Origin: Rhodococcus sp. IEGM 1409
GTDB lineage: Bacteria; Actinomycetota; Actinomycetes; Mycobacteriales; Mycobacteriaceae
Length of the DNA: 64,000 nt
Assembly (NCBI RefSeq): GCF_030056735.1
Contig: NZ_JASHKN010000002.1
Span: forward strand, 496,001-560,000
Reading direction: 5' to 3'
Below, in pieces: positions 7,980 to 13,184 of the stretch. Made by a program: the position numbers and the translations under genes. Numbering within the stretch: the first letter of the stretch is position 1; every line of letters starts with the position of its first letter. The notes beneath the pieces are model-generated. The model ran no database searches. It was not told the DNA's origin and saw only the letters and a program-made list of their open reading frames with translations.

Positions 7980-8930
7980 ATGATCCAGGCCCACCTCGAC
8001 ACCTTGCACGGACTGCCGGCCTTCGACTTTCCGGCGCCGGACGAGGCCGAGCCGTTGCCGGCCGCAGACGCCGTGGCGTGGCGCATCTCGGTCGAACCGT
8101 ACGACGACGACCCGGAAGAGTTTTCCGATGCCTGGGCGCGATTCGTCGAGACGGTGGACCTGTCGGCGGTGAAGGCACTGATCATCGGCCAGTGGGGTGA
8201 GTCGTACGAGGTCGATTCGTCGTCGATCGTGGATCTGGTTGTCGAGCAACGTCACCGGCTCACGGCACTGCGTGCAGTATTTCTCGCGGACATCACGCAG
8301 GAGCAGCAGGAGATTTCCTGGATCCAACAATCCGACGTCACTCCCGTGCTGGGGGCGTTTCCGGAGTTGGTCGAATTCGGGATCCGTGGCGGCACCGAAT
8401 TGAAGTTCCCGGAAACCAGTCATGCTTCGCTACGACGATTGACCATCGAAGCGGGCGGCGTGCCCGCCGCAGTCGTCCGCGGTGTGTCTTCCAGCGATTT
8501 TCCTTCGCTCGAGTTTCTCGACCTGTGGCTCGGAACCGGTAATTACGGAGGAGATTCGACTGTCGAGGACCTTGCGCTCATTCTCGGCGGCGCAAAACTA
8601 CCGTCGTTGCGGCACTTGGGGCTACGGAACAGCGAGATCGAGGACGCCATTGCTGCGGCGATAGTCGACGCTCCCATTCTTCGTCAGTTGACCACGTTGG
8701 ATCTCTCCATGGGCACGCTCTCCGACGAAGGTGCAACGGCCTTGTTGGGCAGCCGATCGATCTCGCACCTCGAGTTCCTCGACCTGCACTACCACTTTCT
8801 CAGCGACGCTACGGTTGCCGAGTTGGCTCGCCACTGCGCCGAACTGGGAGTACGGGTTGATCTCGCCGATCAGACCACGCCGGATGCGTACGACGGCGAA
8901 GCCTGGCGATATGTTGCCGTCTCCGAGTAA
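7980..8930 (+). CDS. STM4015-family leucine-rich-repeat protein
   Basis: First gene of the five-gene cassette, 316 residues, probably cytoplasmic since no signal or membrane segment is seen. From about residue 100 it shows degenerate leucine-rich repeats (LRAVFLADI, LVEFGIRGG, LRRLTIEAG, LEFLDLWLG, LRHLGLRNS, LTTLDLSMG, LEFLDLHYH), each about 25 residues; the N-terminus has the family-typical HGLPAFDF and the C-terminus ends in a compact WRYVAVSE. LRR proteins of this kind usually bind other proteins; here it could be a scaffold, a receptor or the substrate of the enzymes that follow. ATG 7980 is preferred over GTG 7977 because AAGGAG is then 6 nt away. No biochemical function is known to me. 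Confidence 0.88.
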   Translation: MIQAHLDTLHGLPAFDFPAPDEAEPLPAADAVAWRISVEPYDDDPEEFSDAWARFVETVDLSAVKALIIGQWGESYEVDSSSIVDLVVEQRHRLTALRAVFLADITQEQQEISWIQQSDVTPVLGAFPELVEFGIRGGTELKFPETSHASLRRLTIEAGGVPAAVVRGVSSSDFPSLEFLDLWLGTGNYGGDSTVEDLALILGGAKLPSLRHLGLRNSEIEDAIAAAIVDAPILRQLTTLDLSMGTLSDEGATALLGSRSISHLEFLDLHYHFLSDATVAELARHCAELGVRVDLADQTTPDAYDGEAWRYVAVSE

Positions 8931-8940
8931 TCCGGCAGTC

Positions 8941-10056
8941 GTGAGTAATCAGGTGGTGCAGCGTTCCCGCCCGAAGTTCGTGGTTGTCGGTATTCCAGGA
9001 AATCGTCGCGTATCCGGATTTGTCGAAGCAGTCACCGGTGCTGGACTGCCCGCGCCGCGGATCGTGGATTGGCGGGAGATAGTCGATCGTAATTACGGTT
9101 TCGAGGCGGGTGAGATCGTTCGGATCGATTCGCCCGGTGAGGATTCTGTGGTCGACGGATGTTTTCGTGGAGCGGGTGAGTCGACCAGGGTGGAGGGCAG
9201 CGGCCAGTGGTACCGGCACTTTTCCGCAGCGATTCGTGAGGTGACCGGTAGAGCCGAAGACGCAGGTGCCCGAGTGCTCGGTGATGCCGACGAGATCGCA
9301 GTGATGTTCGACAAGCGTCGATGTCACCGTCGCCTGGGAACCGCTGGAGTGCGTGTTCCTGCCGCATTACCAATCTCCCCGCGCAGCTACTCCGAACTGG
9401 CGCAGCATGCGGCCGACGCGGGAATGCCGCGGGTTTTCGTCAAGCTGGCACACGGGTCGTCGGCATCGGGAGTGATTGCACTGCAATGGGGTCCGCGTGG
9501 ACAGGTTCGTGCCGTTACGTCGGTGGAGATGGGCGATGACGGAGTTTTGCACAATTCGCTACGGGTGCGCACCTATCGAAATGAATGGGAAATCGCAGCG
9601 ATTGTCGATCGGCTGGCACCGGACAGCCTTCATGTCGAGCAGTGGTTACCTAAGGCATCGCTCGGGGGACGCACCGCCGACATTCGGGTAGTCGTCGTCG
9701 GAGGCGTCGCCACCCATGCGGTCGTCCGAACCAGCACCACTCCGCTCACCAACCTGCACCTCGGTGGCTCTCGCGGCGAACTGCACGACGCTGTGACCGC
9801 TGCGGGTGAAAACTGGTCGCAGTTGCTGGAATTGAGTGAACAGGCAGCCTCATGTTTTCCTTCGGCGCCCCACGTCGGTGTTGACATATTGCCGGGTGAG
9901 GGGTGGCGACGCTTCTCGGTCGGTGAGGTCAACGCGTTCGGTGACCTCCTGCCTGGGCTCACCGGTCTGCCCGGCGGCCCGGCCGAAGGGCTGAACACGT
10001 ATCAAACACAGGTGGCTTCGCTCCTGGAATCCGAGAGCAGGGAGTGCACCCGATGA
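8941..10056 (+). CDS. STM4014-family ATP-grasp-like protein
   Basis: Second cassette gene, about 371 residues. The N-terminus begins with a Rossmann-like segment (KFVVVGIPGNRR), and the rest has an ATP-grasp layout: a lysine strand and glycine-rich loop (VFVKLAHGSSASGV, near residue 160), HVEQWLPKASLGGRTADIRV near 235, and a metal-binding end DILPGEGW...VGEVNAF near 320. ATP-grasp enzymes make acyl-phosphate intermediates and join carboxylates to amines or thiols, so a ligase step is expected, with unknown substrates. The start is uncertain: GTG 8941 lies 10 nt after the LRR stop; ATG 8911 would overlap it; GTG 8953/8956 are also possible. The stop overlaps the next start as ATGA. Confidence 0.85.
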   Translation: MSNQVVQRSRPKFVVVGIPGNRRVSGFVEAVTGAGLPAPRIVDWREIVDRNYGFEAGEIVRIDSPGEDSVVDGCFRGAGESTRVEGSGQWYRHFSAAIREVTGRAEDAGARVLGDADEIAVMFDKRRCHRRLGTAGVRVPAALPISPRSYSELAQHAADAGMPRVFVKLAHGSSASGVIALQWGPRGQVRAVTSVEMGDDGVLHNSLRVRTYRNEWEIAAIVDRLAPDSLHVEQWLPKASLGGRTADIRVVVVGGVATHAVVRTSTTPLTNLHLGGSRGELHDAVTAAGENWSQLLELSEQAASCFPSAPHVGVDILPGEGWRRFSVGEVNAFGDLLPGLTGLPGGPAEGLNTYQTQVASLLESESRECTR

Positions 10057-10889
10057 TGCGCGCAGAACCAGCGCTCGACATGAATGACGTTGTCGGTCAG
10101 GACGACATCTTGTTGCTGACGTTGGACACGCTCCGATACGACGTAGCGCGCGAGTTGGCGTCGAGTGGACGCATTCCCACTCTTGCGTCGTACCTCCCCG
10201 GGGGACAGTGGGAAAAACGCCATGCCCCGGGAAGTTTCACCTACGCCTCTCATCAGGCGATTTTTGCCGGCTTTCTCCCGACCCCGGCCAGCCAAGGGCC
10301 GCACCCCCGATTGTTCGCTGCTCGATTCTCCGGGAGTGAGTCCACCGCGGACGGCACGTTCGTGTTCGAGGGCTCCACCCTAATGGACGGTCTGCGGCAA
10401 GCCGGCTACCGCACTGTGTGTATCGGCGGTGTGGGGTTCTTCAACAAAGCTGCACCGCTGGGGTCGGTGTTGCCCGAGATGTTCGACGAGAGTTTCTGGG
10501 AGCCACGTTTCGGCGTGACGTCTCCGGAATCCTTCGAAGCGCAGGTCGAGTGTGCCGAAGGGGTGGTCTCGCGACTGCATCACGAAGAGAGGCTCTTTCT
10601 CTTCGTCAACGCTGCTGCGCTGCATCAACCCAACTGGTTCCACCTTGACGGAGCATCTGCGGAGTCGGGGGACACCCTCGACTCGCATGCTGCCGCACTC
10701 GAATACATCGACAGACATGTCGAACGACTCCTGCGGGTAATGAGTTCACGGCGACGGTGTTTTGCCATCGTCTGTTCCGATCACGGCACCGCGTACGGCG
10801 ACGACGGTTGGACCGGACACCGGCTGGGTCACGACAGCGTCTGGACGGTTCCCTACTCACACTTCTTCGTGGAAGGTCCGCTGCAATGA
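10053..10889 (+). CDS. STM4013/SEN3800-family alkaline-phosphatase-fold hydrolase
   Basis: Third cassette gene, 278 residues. It has the metal-site pattern of the sulfatase/alkaline phosphatase superfamily: LLLTLDTLRYD with D25, a nucleophile segment TYASHQAIFAGFLP, and a C-terminal CSDHGTAYGDDGWTGHRLGH with D243, H244, H256 and H260. Laid over the sulfatase signature CxPSRxxLLTGxxP, Thr63 takes the place of the formylglycine Cys/Ser and His67 that of the Arg. Thr nucleophiles are found in phosphoethanolamine and glycerol-phosphate transferases of this superfamily, so phosphoester chemistry is likelier than sulfate hydrolysis. It lacks a signal peptide. GGGAG lies 8 nt before ATG 10053; both gene junctions are ATGA overlaps. 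Confidence 0.87.
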   Translation: MMRAEPALDMNDVVGQDDILLLTLDTLRYDVARELASSGRIPTLASYLPGGQWEKRHAPGSFTYASHQAIFAGFLPTPASQGPHPRLFAARFSGSESTADGTFVFEGSTLMDGLRQAGYRTVCIGGVGFFNKAAPLGSVLPEMFDESFWEPRFGVTSPESFEAQVECAEGVVSRLHHEERLFLFVNAAALHQPNWFHLDGASAESGDTLDSHAAALEYIDRHVERLLRVMSSRRRCFAIVCSDHGTAYGDDGWTGHRLGHDSVWTVPYSHFFVEGPLQ

Positions 10890-12226
10890 GTCTCGCAGTC
10901 GCGGTACGTCCGTACCAGAATTACGTCTATGCGTATCCGCACAAGACGGCCTACCGGCCGCTGAACCCCCGGCCGTCCTTGCAGAAATTGTGGGCGTCCG
11001 AACCCAAGGGGGCGCTGTCGCTGTACCTGCACATCCCGTTTTGTGAGGTGCGGTGCGGATTCTGCAATCTGTTCACCCGTATCGGGGCACCGGGCGAGAT
11101 GAGCACCGCGTACCTCGATGCGCTCGAGCGTCAATCGCGCGTCGTTGCAGAGTGCGTCGGCGACGGAACCCACTATGACGCAGTGGCGTTCGGTGGTGGT
11201 ACTCCGACCTTCCTCCACGCGTCCGAACTCGACAGACTGTGCGACATCGCGGAATTCCGTATGGGCGCTGATCTTTCATCTATTCCGTTCTCGGTGGAGG
11301 CATCACCGTCGACGGTCACCGCCGATCGGATGTCGGTGTTGGCATCGCGGGGCACTACCCGATTGAGCTTGGGTGTTCAGAGCTTCATCGACTCGGAGGC
11401 GAGGGCGGCGGCCCGTCCACAGAAGCGCGCCGACGTCGAGGCCGCTCTGGGACGGATCCGCGCCGCACGAATTCCCGTGCTCAACATCGATCTCATCTAC
11501 GGAATCGACGGTCAGACCGAGCAGACATTCAAGCAGTCCCTGGACCGTGAGCTGGCTTGGGAACCCGAAGAGTTGTATCTGTACCCGTTGTACGTGCGTG
11601 CGCTCACCGGTTTGGGGAGAAAGGTAGACGGAACCGATACCGAGACCGAATGGGACGAACATCGGCTGCGCCTCTACCGGTTCGGGCGCGACTATCTCGA
11701 GCGTTCGGGCTATCGACAGGTCTCGATGCGCATGTTCCAACGTGTTGGCGCGGTTGTCGAAGGTGCCGCCGACTACGCGTGCCAAACCGACGGAATGATC
11801 GGATTGGGTTGTGGTGCACGCTCGTACACGGCTGATCTGCACTATTCCTTCGACTACGCAGTCGAGATGCGCGAGATTCGTGGCATCGTCGACTCTTTCA
11901 TCGCGAGGCCTGCCAACGAGTTCGCCTACGCGGAAGTCGGCCGATACATGACTGCCGACGAGACGCGTCGCAGGCACCTCGTCCAGTCGGTGCTCCAAGC
12001 CGAGGGGATGGACGTGCACGACTATCGCGCCCGGTTCGGATCAACACCGGAGGACGATTTTCCGGAGGAACTGGCGCGTTTCGCCTCGGCCGGATGGCTG
12101 GCGAGCGACCGGGGATCCGGTCGTCTGGTCCTCTCGGCCGAAGGTATCGCGTATTCGGATGCAATCGGTCCCGCGCTCTTCTCGGACAGCGTCAGCCGTG
12201 ACATGGCGGACTACGAGGCGAAATGA
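10886..12226 (+). CDS. STM4012-family radical SAM protein, HemN/HemW-like
   Basis: Fourth cassette gene, 446 residues. The radical SAM cluster is C53-x3-C57-x2-C60 (CEVRCGFCN), preceded by the HemN/HemW-type SLYLHIPFC and followed by GGGTP (103-107) and RLSLGVQSF (159-167). A C-terminal HemN-like domain is present. Databases often label such proteins coproporphyrinogen III oxidase, but the setting next to a second radical SAM enzyme, an ATP-grasp protein and an LRR protein makes heme synthesis improbable. The frame is open upstream; ATG 10886 is chosen for the ATGA overlap with the hydrolase and GGAAGG 9 nt upstream. The radical chemistry and target are unknown. Confidence 0.88.
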   Translation: MSLAVAVRPYQNYVYAYPHKTAYRPLNPRPSLQKLWASEPKGALSLYLHIPFCEVRCGFCNLFTRIGAPGEMSTAYLDALERQSRVVAECVGDGTHYDAVAFGGGTPTFLHASELDRLCDIAEFRMGADLSSIPFSVEASPSTVTADRMSVLASRGTTRLSLGVQSFIDSEARAAARPQKRADVEAALGRIRAARIPVLNIDLIYGIDGQTEQTFKQSLDRELAWEPEELYLYPLYVRALTGLGRKVDGTDTETEWDEHRLRLYRFGRDYLERSGYRQVSMRMFQRVGAVVEGAADYACQTDGMIGLGCGARSYTADLHYSFDYAVEMREIRGIVDSFIARPANEFAYAEVGRYMTADETRRRHLVQSVLQAEGMDVHDYRARFGSTPEDDFPEELARFASAGWLASDRGSGRLVLSAEGIAYSDAIGPALFSDSVSRDMADYEAK

Positions 12227-13128
12227 ACCCGACCCTGTCGATTCTCTATCGTGGCCCGTTGGCGAGCTGCAATTACGACTGCCCGTACTGCCCTTTCGCA
12301 AAGCGTCGTGACCCACCTGCCGAGTTGCGTGCGGACAGAGCGTCATTGGAGCGGTTTGCCACCTGGGTCACCGAGCAGACTGATCGACAATTGTCCGTGC
12401 TGTTCACGCCCTGGGGTGAGGCGTTGGTGCGGTCCTGGTATCGACGCACCCTCGCGGAGTTGAGTTGGTTGCCGCACGTCCAACGGATCGCGATCCAGAC
12501 CAATCTCAGCGCTCGAACCAGTTGGCTCGCCGACGCCGACCCGTCGACGCTGGCTCTCTGGTGCACGTTCCATCCCGGGCAGACGTCGATCGAGCGTTTC
12601 CTCGCGAAGTGTTCTGAACTCGACGGTGCCGGTATTCGCTATTCGGTAGGCGTGGTTGGATTTCCGGAACATCAGGCATCGGCAAGGGAACTGCGACAGA
12701 AGCTGCCCGAGCACGTGTACCTGTGGGTGAACGCGGCCGAAGGATTGGAATACACCGATGGCGAAGCGGCACGGTGGACGGAGTTGGACCCCCTGTTTCC
12801 GTACAGCCGGAACCCTCACCAGAGCGGCGGAAAAGCCTGCCGAACCGGAGAATCCGTCATTTCCGTGGACGGTGACGGCACTATCCGTCGGTGCCACTTC
12901 GTTCCCGAAGTGATCGGAAATCTGTACGACGACGCCCTCGAGAAGGTTCTTGCCGCCCGAGAGTGCCCGAAAACGCTGTGTGACTGTCACATCGGCTACG
13001 TGCATCTCGAGTCTCTACCGCTCTACGACGCATTCGCCGGGGGAGTGCTCGAGCGGATACCTGCGCCCCTCGAGTATTCACATGTCGGCGCTGGTGTGGA
13101 TCTGATCCCGATTCATGTCGCTCGCTGA
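12223..13128 (+). CDS. STM4011-family radical SAM protein with auxiliary-cluster cysteines
   Basis: Last cassette gene, 301 residues. The N-terminal CxxxCxxC is C16, C20, C23 (CNYDCPYC); PWGEA at 63-67 stands for the SAM-binding GGE motif. The C-terminal third has C206, C224, C248, C253 and C255 in the order ACRTGE, DGDGTIRRCHF, GNLYDDALEKVL, CPKTLCDCHIGYVHL, which looks like a SPASM/twitch auxiliary iron-sulfur domain. Such domains are common in peptide- and protein-modifying radical SAM enzymes, including RiPP maturases and anaerobic sulfatase-maturing enzymes. The ATG overlaps the previous stop as ATGA and a terminator follows at once, so this ends the operon. Confidence 0.88.
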   Translation: MNPTLSILYRGPLASCNYDCPYCPFAKRRDPPAELRADRASLERFATWVTEQTDRQLSVLFTPWGEALVRSWYRRTLAELSWLPHVQRIAIQTNLSARTSWLADADPSTLALWCTFHPGQTSIERFLAKCSELDGAGIRYSVGVVGFPEHQASARELRQKLPEHVYLWVNAAEGLEYTDGEAARWTELDPLFPYSRNPHQSGGKACRTGESVISVDGDGTIRRCHFVPEVIGNLYDDALEKVLAARECPKTLCDCHIGYVHLESLPLYDAFAGGVLERIPAPLEYSHVGAGVDLIPIHVAR

Positions 13129-13132
13129 CAGC

Positions 13133-13167
13133 AAAGATCCCCGGCCGAAGAGCGGCCGGGGATCTTT
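13133..13167. terminator. Terminator between cassette and ilvD
   Basis: Perfect 15-bp inverted repeat (13133-13147 with 13153-13167), loop of 5, with TTTT at the 3' side and the mirror T run on the other strand. It closes the cassette operon and the convergent ilvD transcript. Confidence 0.93.
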
Positions 13168-13184
13168 TCCGTTCGTGTCGGGAC

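Follow-up and report, generated by a model that had tools for sequence, protein, structure and literature searches.

A stretch of 64,000 nucleotides from Rhodococcus sp. IEGM 1409 (GCF_030056735.1, contig NZ_JASHKN010000002.1, positions 496,001 to 560,000; hereafter the window) carries a five-gene cassette, STM4015-STM4014-STM4013-STM4012-STM4011, which NCBI names solely via Salmonella locus tags. We propose with moderate confidence that this cassette loads a group onto the C-terminus of STM4015, a leucine-rich repeat (LRR) protein, and then elaborates it, by ATP-dependent loading of the terminal Glu followed by radical and phospho chemistry. Computed results form the basis of this proposal, namely the gene set, its fixed order and co-occurrence, a conserved tail, the fold of the ligase and the pattern of copy number; the reaction steps themselves are proposed. 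The cassette thereby gains a specific hypothesis centred on the last Glu of STM4015, and the bacteria concerned range from Rhodococcus and Streptomyces to Paenibacillus, Salmonella and some E. coli. An earlier reading of the window, made by a model from the letters and open reading frames (the sequence-only reading), knew of no assigned function for the five families; likewise, none was found in the open-licence literature, where two papers give an STM401x name, each once and in a table.

All five genes lie on the + strand, and their products score well over the curated NCBIfam cut-offs of the families that the sequence-only reading had named. They encode an STM4015 family LRR protein, the proposed carrier or substrate (7980..8930; NCBIfam score 373.7 bits versus a cut-off of 275), an STM4014 family ATP-grasp ligase (8911 or 8941..10056; NF038074, 414.5 versus 175), an STM4013/SEN3800 family hydrolase of the alkaline phosphatase/sulfatase superfamily (10053..10889; NF038075, 409.3 versus 250), a HemN/NocN-like radical S-adenosylmethionine (SAM) enzyme of the STM4012 family (10886..12226; NF006067, 616.7 versus 380) and an STM4011 family radical SAM enzyme (12223..13128; NF038073, 411.7 versus 200). 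Three of the four junctions are ATGA overlaps (10053, 10886 and 12223), as had been read from the letters. At the fourth, STM4015 stops at 8930 and STM4014 could start at ATG 8911 or GTG 8941; the latter is the likelier start, because the model gives 16 of the 17 residues at the start of the long form a predicted local distance difference test score (pLDDT) under 50. AAGGAG stands ahead of the STM4015 start, for which GTG 7977 is an alternative. Folding bore out the claimed terminator directly after the last gene, a terminator-like hairpin (13133..13169, + strand) with a 15-bp stem and −32.9 kcal/mol (z −6.0), equalled by 0 of 200 shuffles; a pattern scan did not list this hairpin and found no sigma-70-like promoters. 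The cassette has a GC content of 61.6% and the window one of 63.1%; among 118 stretches of its size, the cassette takes rank 21.

Comparison across genomes supports the behaviour of the five families as a unit in Actinomycetota, Bacillota, Pseudomonadota, Bacteroidota and Deinococcota, in line with the spread over distant phyla that the sequence-only reading had assumed. We assembled 99 loci, the window included, in which all five families score >200 bits; the order 4015(n)-4014-4013-4012-4011 recurs in 98, with all genes on one strand in 99 of 99. The sole exception, in Bacteroidota, is arranged 4013-4012-4011-4015-4014. Since the order recurs this often, the arrangement is beyond chance. Paenibacillus and close kin account for 69 of the 99 loci (the contig profile scan covered the best 80 of 572 matches, mostly Paenibacillus), and the same order is present in Deinococcus, Methylobacterium, Salmonella, Undibacterium, Chitinophagaceae, Saprospiraceae and actinomycetes and, by annotation, in one E. 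coli strain. In one draw of 197 actinomycete genomes, including that of the window, the same 19 exceed the cut-offs for STM4015, STM4011 and STM4014. The sequence distances of the five families over 50 loci are correlated with one another (r 0.80–0.95), to which shared host descent contributes.

The spread is patchy. Of 198 Actinomycetota genomes, 5 were positive (a draw that includes the window's own genome), and in the Bacteroidota and Pseudomonadota draws solely the known carriers at their centre were over the cut-off (0 of 246 and 0 of 348 others); the Bacteroidota genome G291, whose cassette is rearranged, falls just under the STM4015 cut-off at 273.6 bits. A distant search matched the 4014–4011 stretch in 154 of 5,426 E. 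coli genomes, all 154 covering at least 80% of it, whereas a near search of E. coli genomes gave no match; IS1 interrupts the stretch in one of the 20 E. coli matches listed. The content is also less strictly fixed than had been claimed. STM4015 is present in one to five copies, which departs from a fixed stoichiometry as well, some lineages add a haloacid dehalogenase (HAD) phosphatase, an adenosine 5′-phosphosulfate (APS) kinase or a DUF6745 protein, and one Bacteroides plasmid locus is reduced.

STM4015 has a conserved end. Glu is the last residue in 240 of 240 relatives listed, in 128 of 129 locus copies (the exception ends in Val) and in 84 of 85 sequences at 65% non-redundancy. In a separate tally of tails by locus, L163, a 25-bit LRR match, was set aside. 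The lists of protein relatives hold the best 120 of 2,461, 4,236 and 801 matches, with ~8,000 candidates scored for each, and the first includes the window's own protein; sets were made non-redundant at 75% or 65% identity before some counts, and the conservation alignment dropped rows with >20% gaps. An acidic stretch precedes a conserved tail that closes with the terminal Glu. In the window, the acidic linker covers residues 297–308 (codons 8868..8903, + strand; 47% Asp/Glu at positions −20 to −9, n = 70 non-redundant) and the tail reads WRYVAVSE (8904..8927, + strand), with Glu316 as the proposed attachment site. Of the 240 relatives listed, 194 have Tyr or Phe at −6 and the other 46 have Asn, His, Asp, Ser, Thr, Cys or Trp there; −7 is Arg in 54 of 85 non-redundant sequences. 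The last residues of STM4014, STM4013, STM4012 and STM4011 are not conserved in their non-redundant alignments.

Copy number sets STM4015 apart from the enzymes. In 19 genomes we counted 38 copies over the cut-off, with more than one copy in 12, and STM4011 and STM4014 are single over the cut-off in all 19. Tandem arrays of two, three and five STM4015 genes precede one enzyme set, and co-located copies are on average 64% identical in their bodies and 88% in their last six residues (24 pairs). Together, copy number and tail are as expected if STM4015 is a substrate or carrier. The earlier suggestion of a substrate held or represented by the LRR protein gains indirect support, and we narrow the likely site to the C-terminal Glu. 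Copies lying away from the cassette in carrier genomes (L142, L149, L152 and L161) keep the Glu and the Tyr/Phe and have Ala at −3, a residue seen there in 0 of 120 STM4015 copies with STM4014 in the same locus. Three of 41 STM4015 alignment members also match the NCBIfam LIC_11051 family fibronectin-binding protein (best E 1.8e-22); common LRR sequence is the probable cause.

The second line of evidence is the ligase. The structures nearest to the STM4014 model (pLDDT 92) are ArgX with LysW, LysX and RimK, and the model has the ATP-grasp fold of the LysX/RimK group. ArgX/LysX and RimK join amino acids to a protein C-terminus. The TNLHLGG loop of STM4014 (9748..9768, + strand) aligns with SNLHRGG of RimK and TNTARGG of LysX; its T, N and L are invariant in 58 non-redundant sequences, and NLH is common to RimK. 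On its predicted fold STM4014 is likely a ligase of the LysX/ArgX/RimK type, which refines the ATP-dependent ligation enzyme of the sequence-only reading. It scores 17.6 bits versus a LysX_arch cut-off of 275.6 and so lies outside that family; a back-translated GSWGR DNA pattern had one chance-like match elsewhere in the window.

The remaining enzymes could provide phospho and radical chemistry. STM4013 has sulfatase/phosphatase-type metal residues, with Asp, Thr, His, Asp-His-Gly, His and His invariant in all 17 non-redundant sequences forming the basis of this count. STM4012 retains CxxxCxxCNLF and matches HemN (1olt, E 3e-57) and NocN (9p2u, E 9e-34), aligning over most of HemN and over the core of NocN, but scores far under the equivalog cut-offs of HemN (136.7 versus 325 bits) and HutW (139.4 versus 400). 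NocN is a radical SAM methyltransferase. In STM4011, the Cys residues of CxxxCxxC and of an auxiliary-cluster-like motif, C-x12-G-x4-C plus CxxxxCxC, are invariant in 43 non-redundant sequences; the auxiliary-cluster region aligns to SkfB and the core to BtrN, the similarity being weak (E 0.0026 and 0.033) and the protein having its own NCBIfam family.

In the proposed sequence of events, STM4014 and ATP would activate the C-terminal Glu of STM4015, at its gamma- or alpha-carboxyl, and couple it to an amino acid, through the amino group, or to another amine. The intermediate would stay tethered, with the acidic stretch and the R-Y tail as a handle, while STM4012 and STM4011 act on it by radical chemistry; a phospho group would be added, moved or removed by STM4013, and certain lineages would bring in an APS-kinase-like kinase, a HAD phosphatase or both. 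The product would then either be released (the five genes include no protease) or be kept on STM4015 as a permanent prosthetic group. If so, the outcome would be a new cofactor, metabolite or protein modification, carrier-protein biosynthesis would reach LRR proteins and two radical SAM enzymes, and 2RA8, a solved STM4015 relative deposited by structural genomics without assigned function, would be an unmodified carrier. A bolder version, which we regard as doubtful, holds that STM4015 proteins are not mere biosynthetic carriers: they would be LRR adaptors bearing a covalent, radical-SAM-made C-terminal prosthetic group, one enzyme set equipping several diverging LRR bodies that have one tail in common. 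Repeat proteins armed after translation or provided with a cofactor in this way would be of a new kind.

The closest parallel in mode of working may be the amino-group-carrier pathways (LysW/ArgW with LysX/ArgX; Vzb22), although carrier fold and recognition motifs place the cassette outside that family. STM4015 resembles LysW and ArgW in its C-terminal Glu after an acidic stretch, its accepting role being putative; the ATP-grasp ligase model is nearest to ArgX/LysX; and further enzymes are encoded alongside in both. By contrast, these carriers are small zinc proteins, whereas STM4015 has an LRR fold with no small zinc-binding domain (by model and structure matches) and no LysW model among the profile matches of 41 members; the cassette also lacks EDWGE and GSWGR and includes radical SAM enzymes. 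RimK acting on ribosomal protein S6 offers an ATP-grasp fold, the NLH loop and a C-terminal acceptor, but its acceptor differs, and STM4014 is encoded among radical SAM enzymes. In pearlin pathways (TglA/TmoA with a PEARL ligase), building takes place on a protein C-terminus, with a radical SAM step in one case (PMC9303977). The cassette would share the idea of building on a C-terminus, but differs in its carrier and in having no tRNA-dependent PEARL ligase among the five genes: no such LanB-like ligase appeared among the family matches of the five proteins, neighbouring genes not having been scanned for it. Membership in the LysW, LysX, HemN, HutW or pearlin families was rejected on scores, motifs and family matches. 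A known anti-phage defence system was likewise rejected, PADLOC giving just two partial weak matches (STM4012 and STM4011).

Loss of the cassette in the window's genus gives a further view of the tail. STM4015 is over the cut-off in 5 of 28 genomes presumed to be Rhodococcus. The site between an amino-acid permease gene and ilvD holds the full cassette in the window's genome, G990 and G1005 and STM4015 alone in G1003 and G1010, and G1009 has a broken STM4015 beside the permease near a contig end (STM4011 was not searched for in these last three). Among the 28 ilvD loci, 14 have the permease but no cassette gene, and seven have neither inside a short flank or concern another paralogue. In G1000 and G988 (L179 and L182) the permease adjoins ilvD and a 17-residue STM4011 remnant is left. 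Judged from sequence, these two junctions are cassette deletions in near relatives of the window's genome, and the cassette has evidently been lost repeatedly in the genus. No STM4014 match was found in G1003, G1010, G1009 or the Bacillota genome G203, and three positive controls matched. The STM4015 tails of these four genomes read WRCIAVTE, WRCVAFSE, WRCVAVTE and FRYPAVTV, which suggests that constraint on the tail may have relaxed after ligase loss. In support, −6 is Tyr or Phe in 118 of the 120 nearest relatives, and the other two are Cys, with exactly the G1010 and G1003 tails.

A number of observations weigh against loading of the terminal Glu. The four orphans stand for about two events, since three have a common ancestry, and the last Glu is retained in three of them, as it is in eight other lone STM4015 copies without STM4014 in the examined stretch; for most of these eight, the genome or replicon holds the enzymes elsewhere (for Calothrix, the search covered the plasmid). 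The argument from Cys is weakened by the more distant relatives, 44 of 120 of which have neither Tyr nor Phe at −6 and none Cys, and because −6 is variable there we shifted our odds very slightly. A conserved residue near the end is found in an enzyme too (Met at −7 in 35 of 39 STM4012 sequences). The last six residues of the STM4015 model are predicted with fair confidence (mean pLDDT 88) and 2RA8 is aligned through the end of the tail, so the tail may be a structured cap and not a free arm. EDWGE endings occur in 0 of 240 STM4015 relatives listed and GSWGR in 0 of 38 and 0 of 120 STM4014 sequences. Structure matches that differ by no more than 1 Z count as ties, the gap to glutathione synthetase and D-Ala ligases is just 2–4 Z, and two other LysX entries, 1uc8 and 1uc9 (19.7–19.8), fall under several unrelated ATP-grasp enzymes. 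Finally, a 280-residue LRR protein would be an expensive carrier.

The main rival, which we judge unlikely, is internal modification of the tail as in ribosomally synthesized and post-translationally modified peptides (RiPPs). The radical SAM enzymes would modify tail residues (Arg, Tyr/Phe, Ser/Thr), STM4014 would close a lactam or lactone in the tail and STM4015 would be a giant precursor or a permanently modified protein. The frequent Tyr/Phe at −6 and Arg at −7 are consistent with this, as are the likeness of the STM4011 auxiliary-cluster region to the RiPP enzyme SkfB and the precursor-like look of tandem STM4015 copies. However, the 46 relatives with other residues at −6 leave the terminal Glu as the sole invariant side chain of the tail, and an invariant end residue suits end-loading over internal crosslinks.

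Less likely still, the tail would merely dock enzymes or cap the LRR, with STM4015 as a scaffold and a free small molecule as the pathway product. This fits the ordered tail, aligned to its end in 2RA8, and the fixed order in 98 of 99 loci, which suits a multienzyme assembly, but docking leaves the exact chain stop at Glu unexplained and tandem copies beside single enzymes suit a substrate better. In the other 49 LRR structures listed, moreover, the match stops at STM4015 residue 308 or earlier, which points to the tail as an addition. We consider it improbable that STM4014, as a RimK-like enzyme, regulates STM4015 by attaching one or several glutamates, with the radical SAM enzymes serving a separate purpose. 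RimK does rank with the closest folds and has the NLH loop in common, but glutamate addition alone gives no role to STM4013 and the two radical SAM enzymes, which keep to the same fixed order. Formylglycine enzymes carry Cys/Ser in the sulfatase signature; maturation of STM4013 to such an enzyme by STM4011, brought to mind by a sulfatase-fold enzyme adjoining a radical SAM enzyme with an auxiliary-cluster-like motif, is ruled out for practical purposes by Thr, which all 17 of 17 non-redundant STM4013 sequences have where the nucleophile is inferred to lie.

Additional partners recur around the cassette. In 23 of the 69 loci of Paenibacillus and kin, STM4011 is followed by an APS-kinase gene no more than ~500 nt away, and two Bacteroidota loci have this gene on the other strand, facing the cassette tail-to-tail (L020:11597-12208 and 22 other Paenibacillaceae-type loci; L159:7633-8235; L087:14481-15119). 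Of 10 genomes tested, 7 have no other apsK over the cut-off, so a role of the linked gene in ordinary sulfate metabolism is possible too. A sixth gene for a HAD phosphatase, of one of two Pfam types, is found repeatedly: in six loci it lies between 4014 and 4013 (L084, L086, L087, L089, L090 and L094), in the rearranged locus it adjoins 4013, in Salmonella, E. coli and some actinomycetes it comes after 4011 (L011, L166 and L151), and in a Bacteroides plasmid it is fused to STM4011 (L009). These sixth partners may point to phosphorylated intermediates. DUF6745 and a 98-residue protein flank the cassette on either side in three phyla, in Deinococcus, Methylobacterium and seven actinomycete loci (L008:12948-14257; L013:6452-7777; L140, L145, L146, L148, L150, L154 and L155); two 98-residue proteins scanned had no Pfam match, and no function for DUF6745 was found in the open-licence literature.

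A few loci depart from the common pattern. The Bacteroides finegoldii plasmid (L009:8763-11703) keeps 4015, 4014 and the 4011-HAD fusion, with just a 76-bit fragment of STM4013 and no detectable STM4012. On a Calothrix plasmid, STM4015 (L012:2014-3288) has an N-terminal extension, with no STM4011 on that plasmid, the one replicon searched. At L206:7900-8620, a putative integrative element has its integrase-like end inside STM4015 just before an EISWI motif, a position that makes STM4015 look like its attachment site. We rejected the cassette as a phage gene set; one viral-contig locus and five phage records contain STM4015 or pieces of it. Salmonella phage JD01 has an STM4015 piece at the end of its record, and a 156-kb record of the phage set, which is named as a Salmonella strain and may hold a complete cassette, looks like host DNA.

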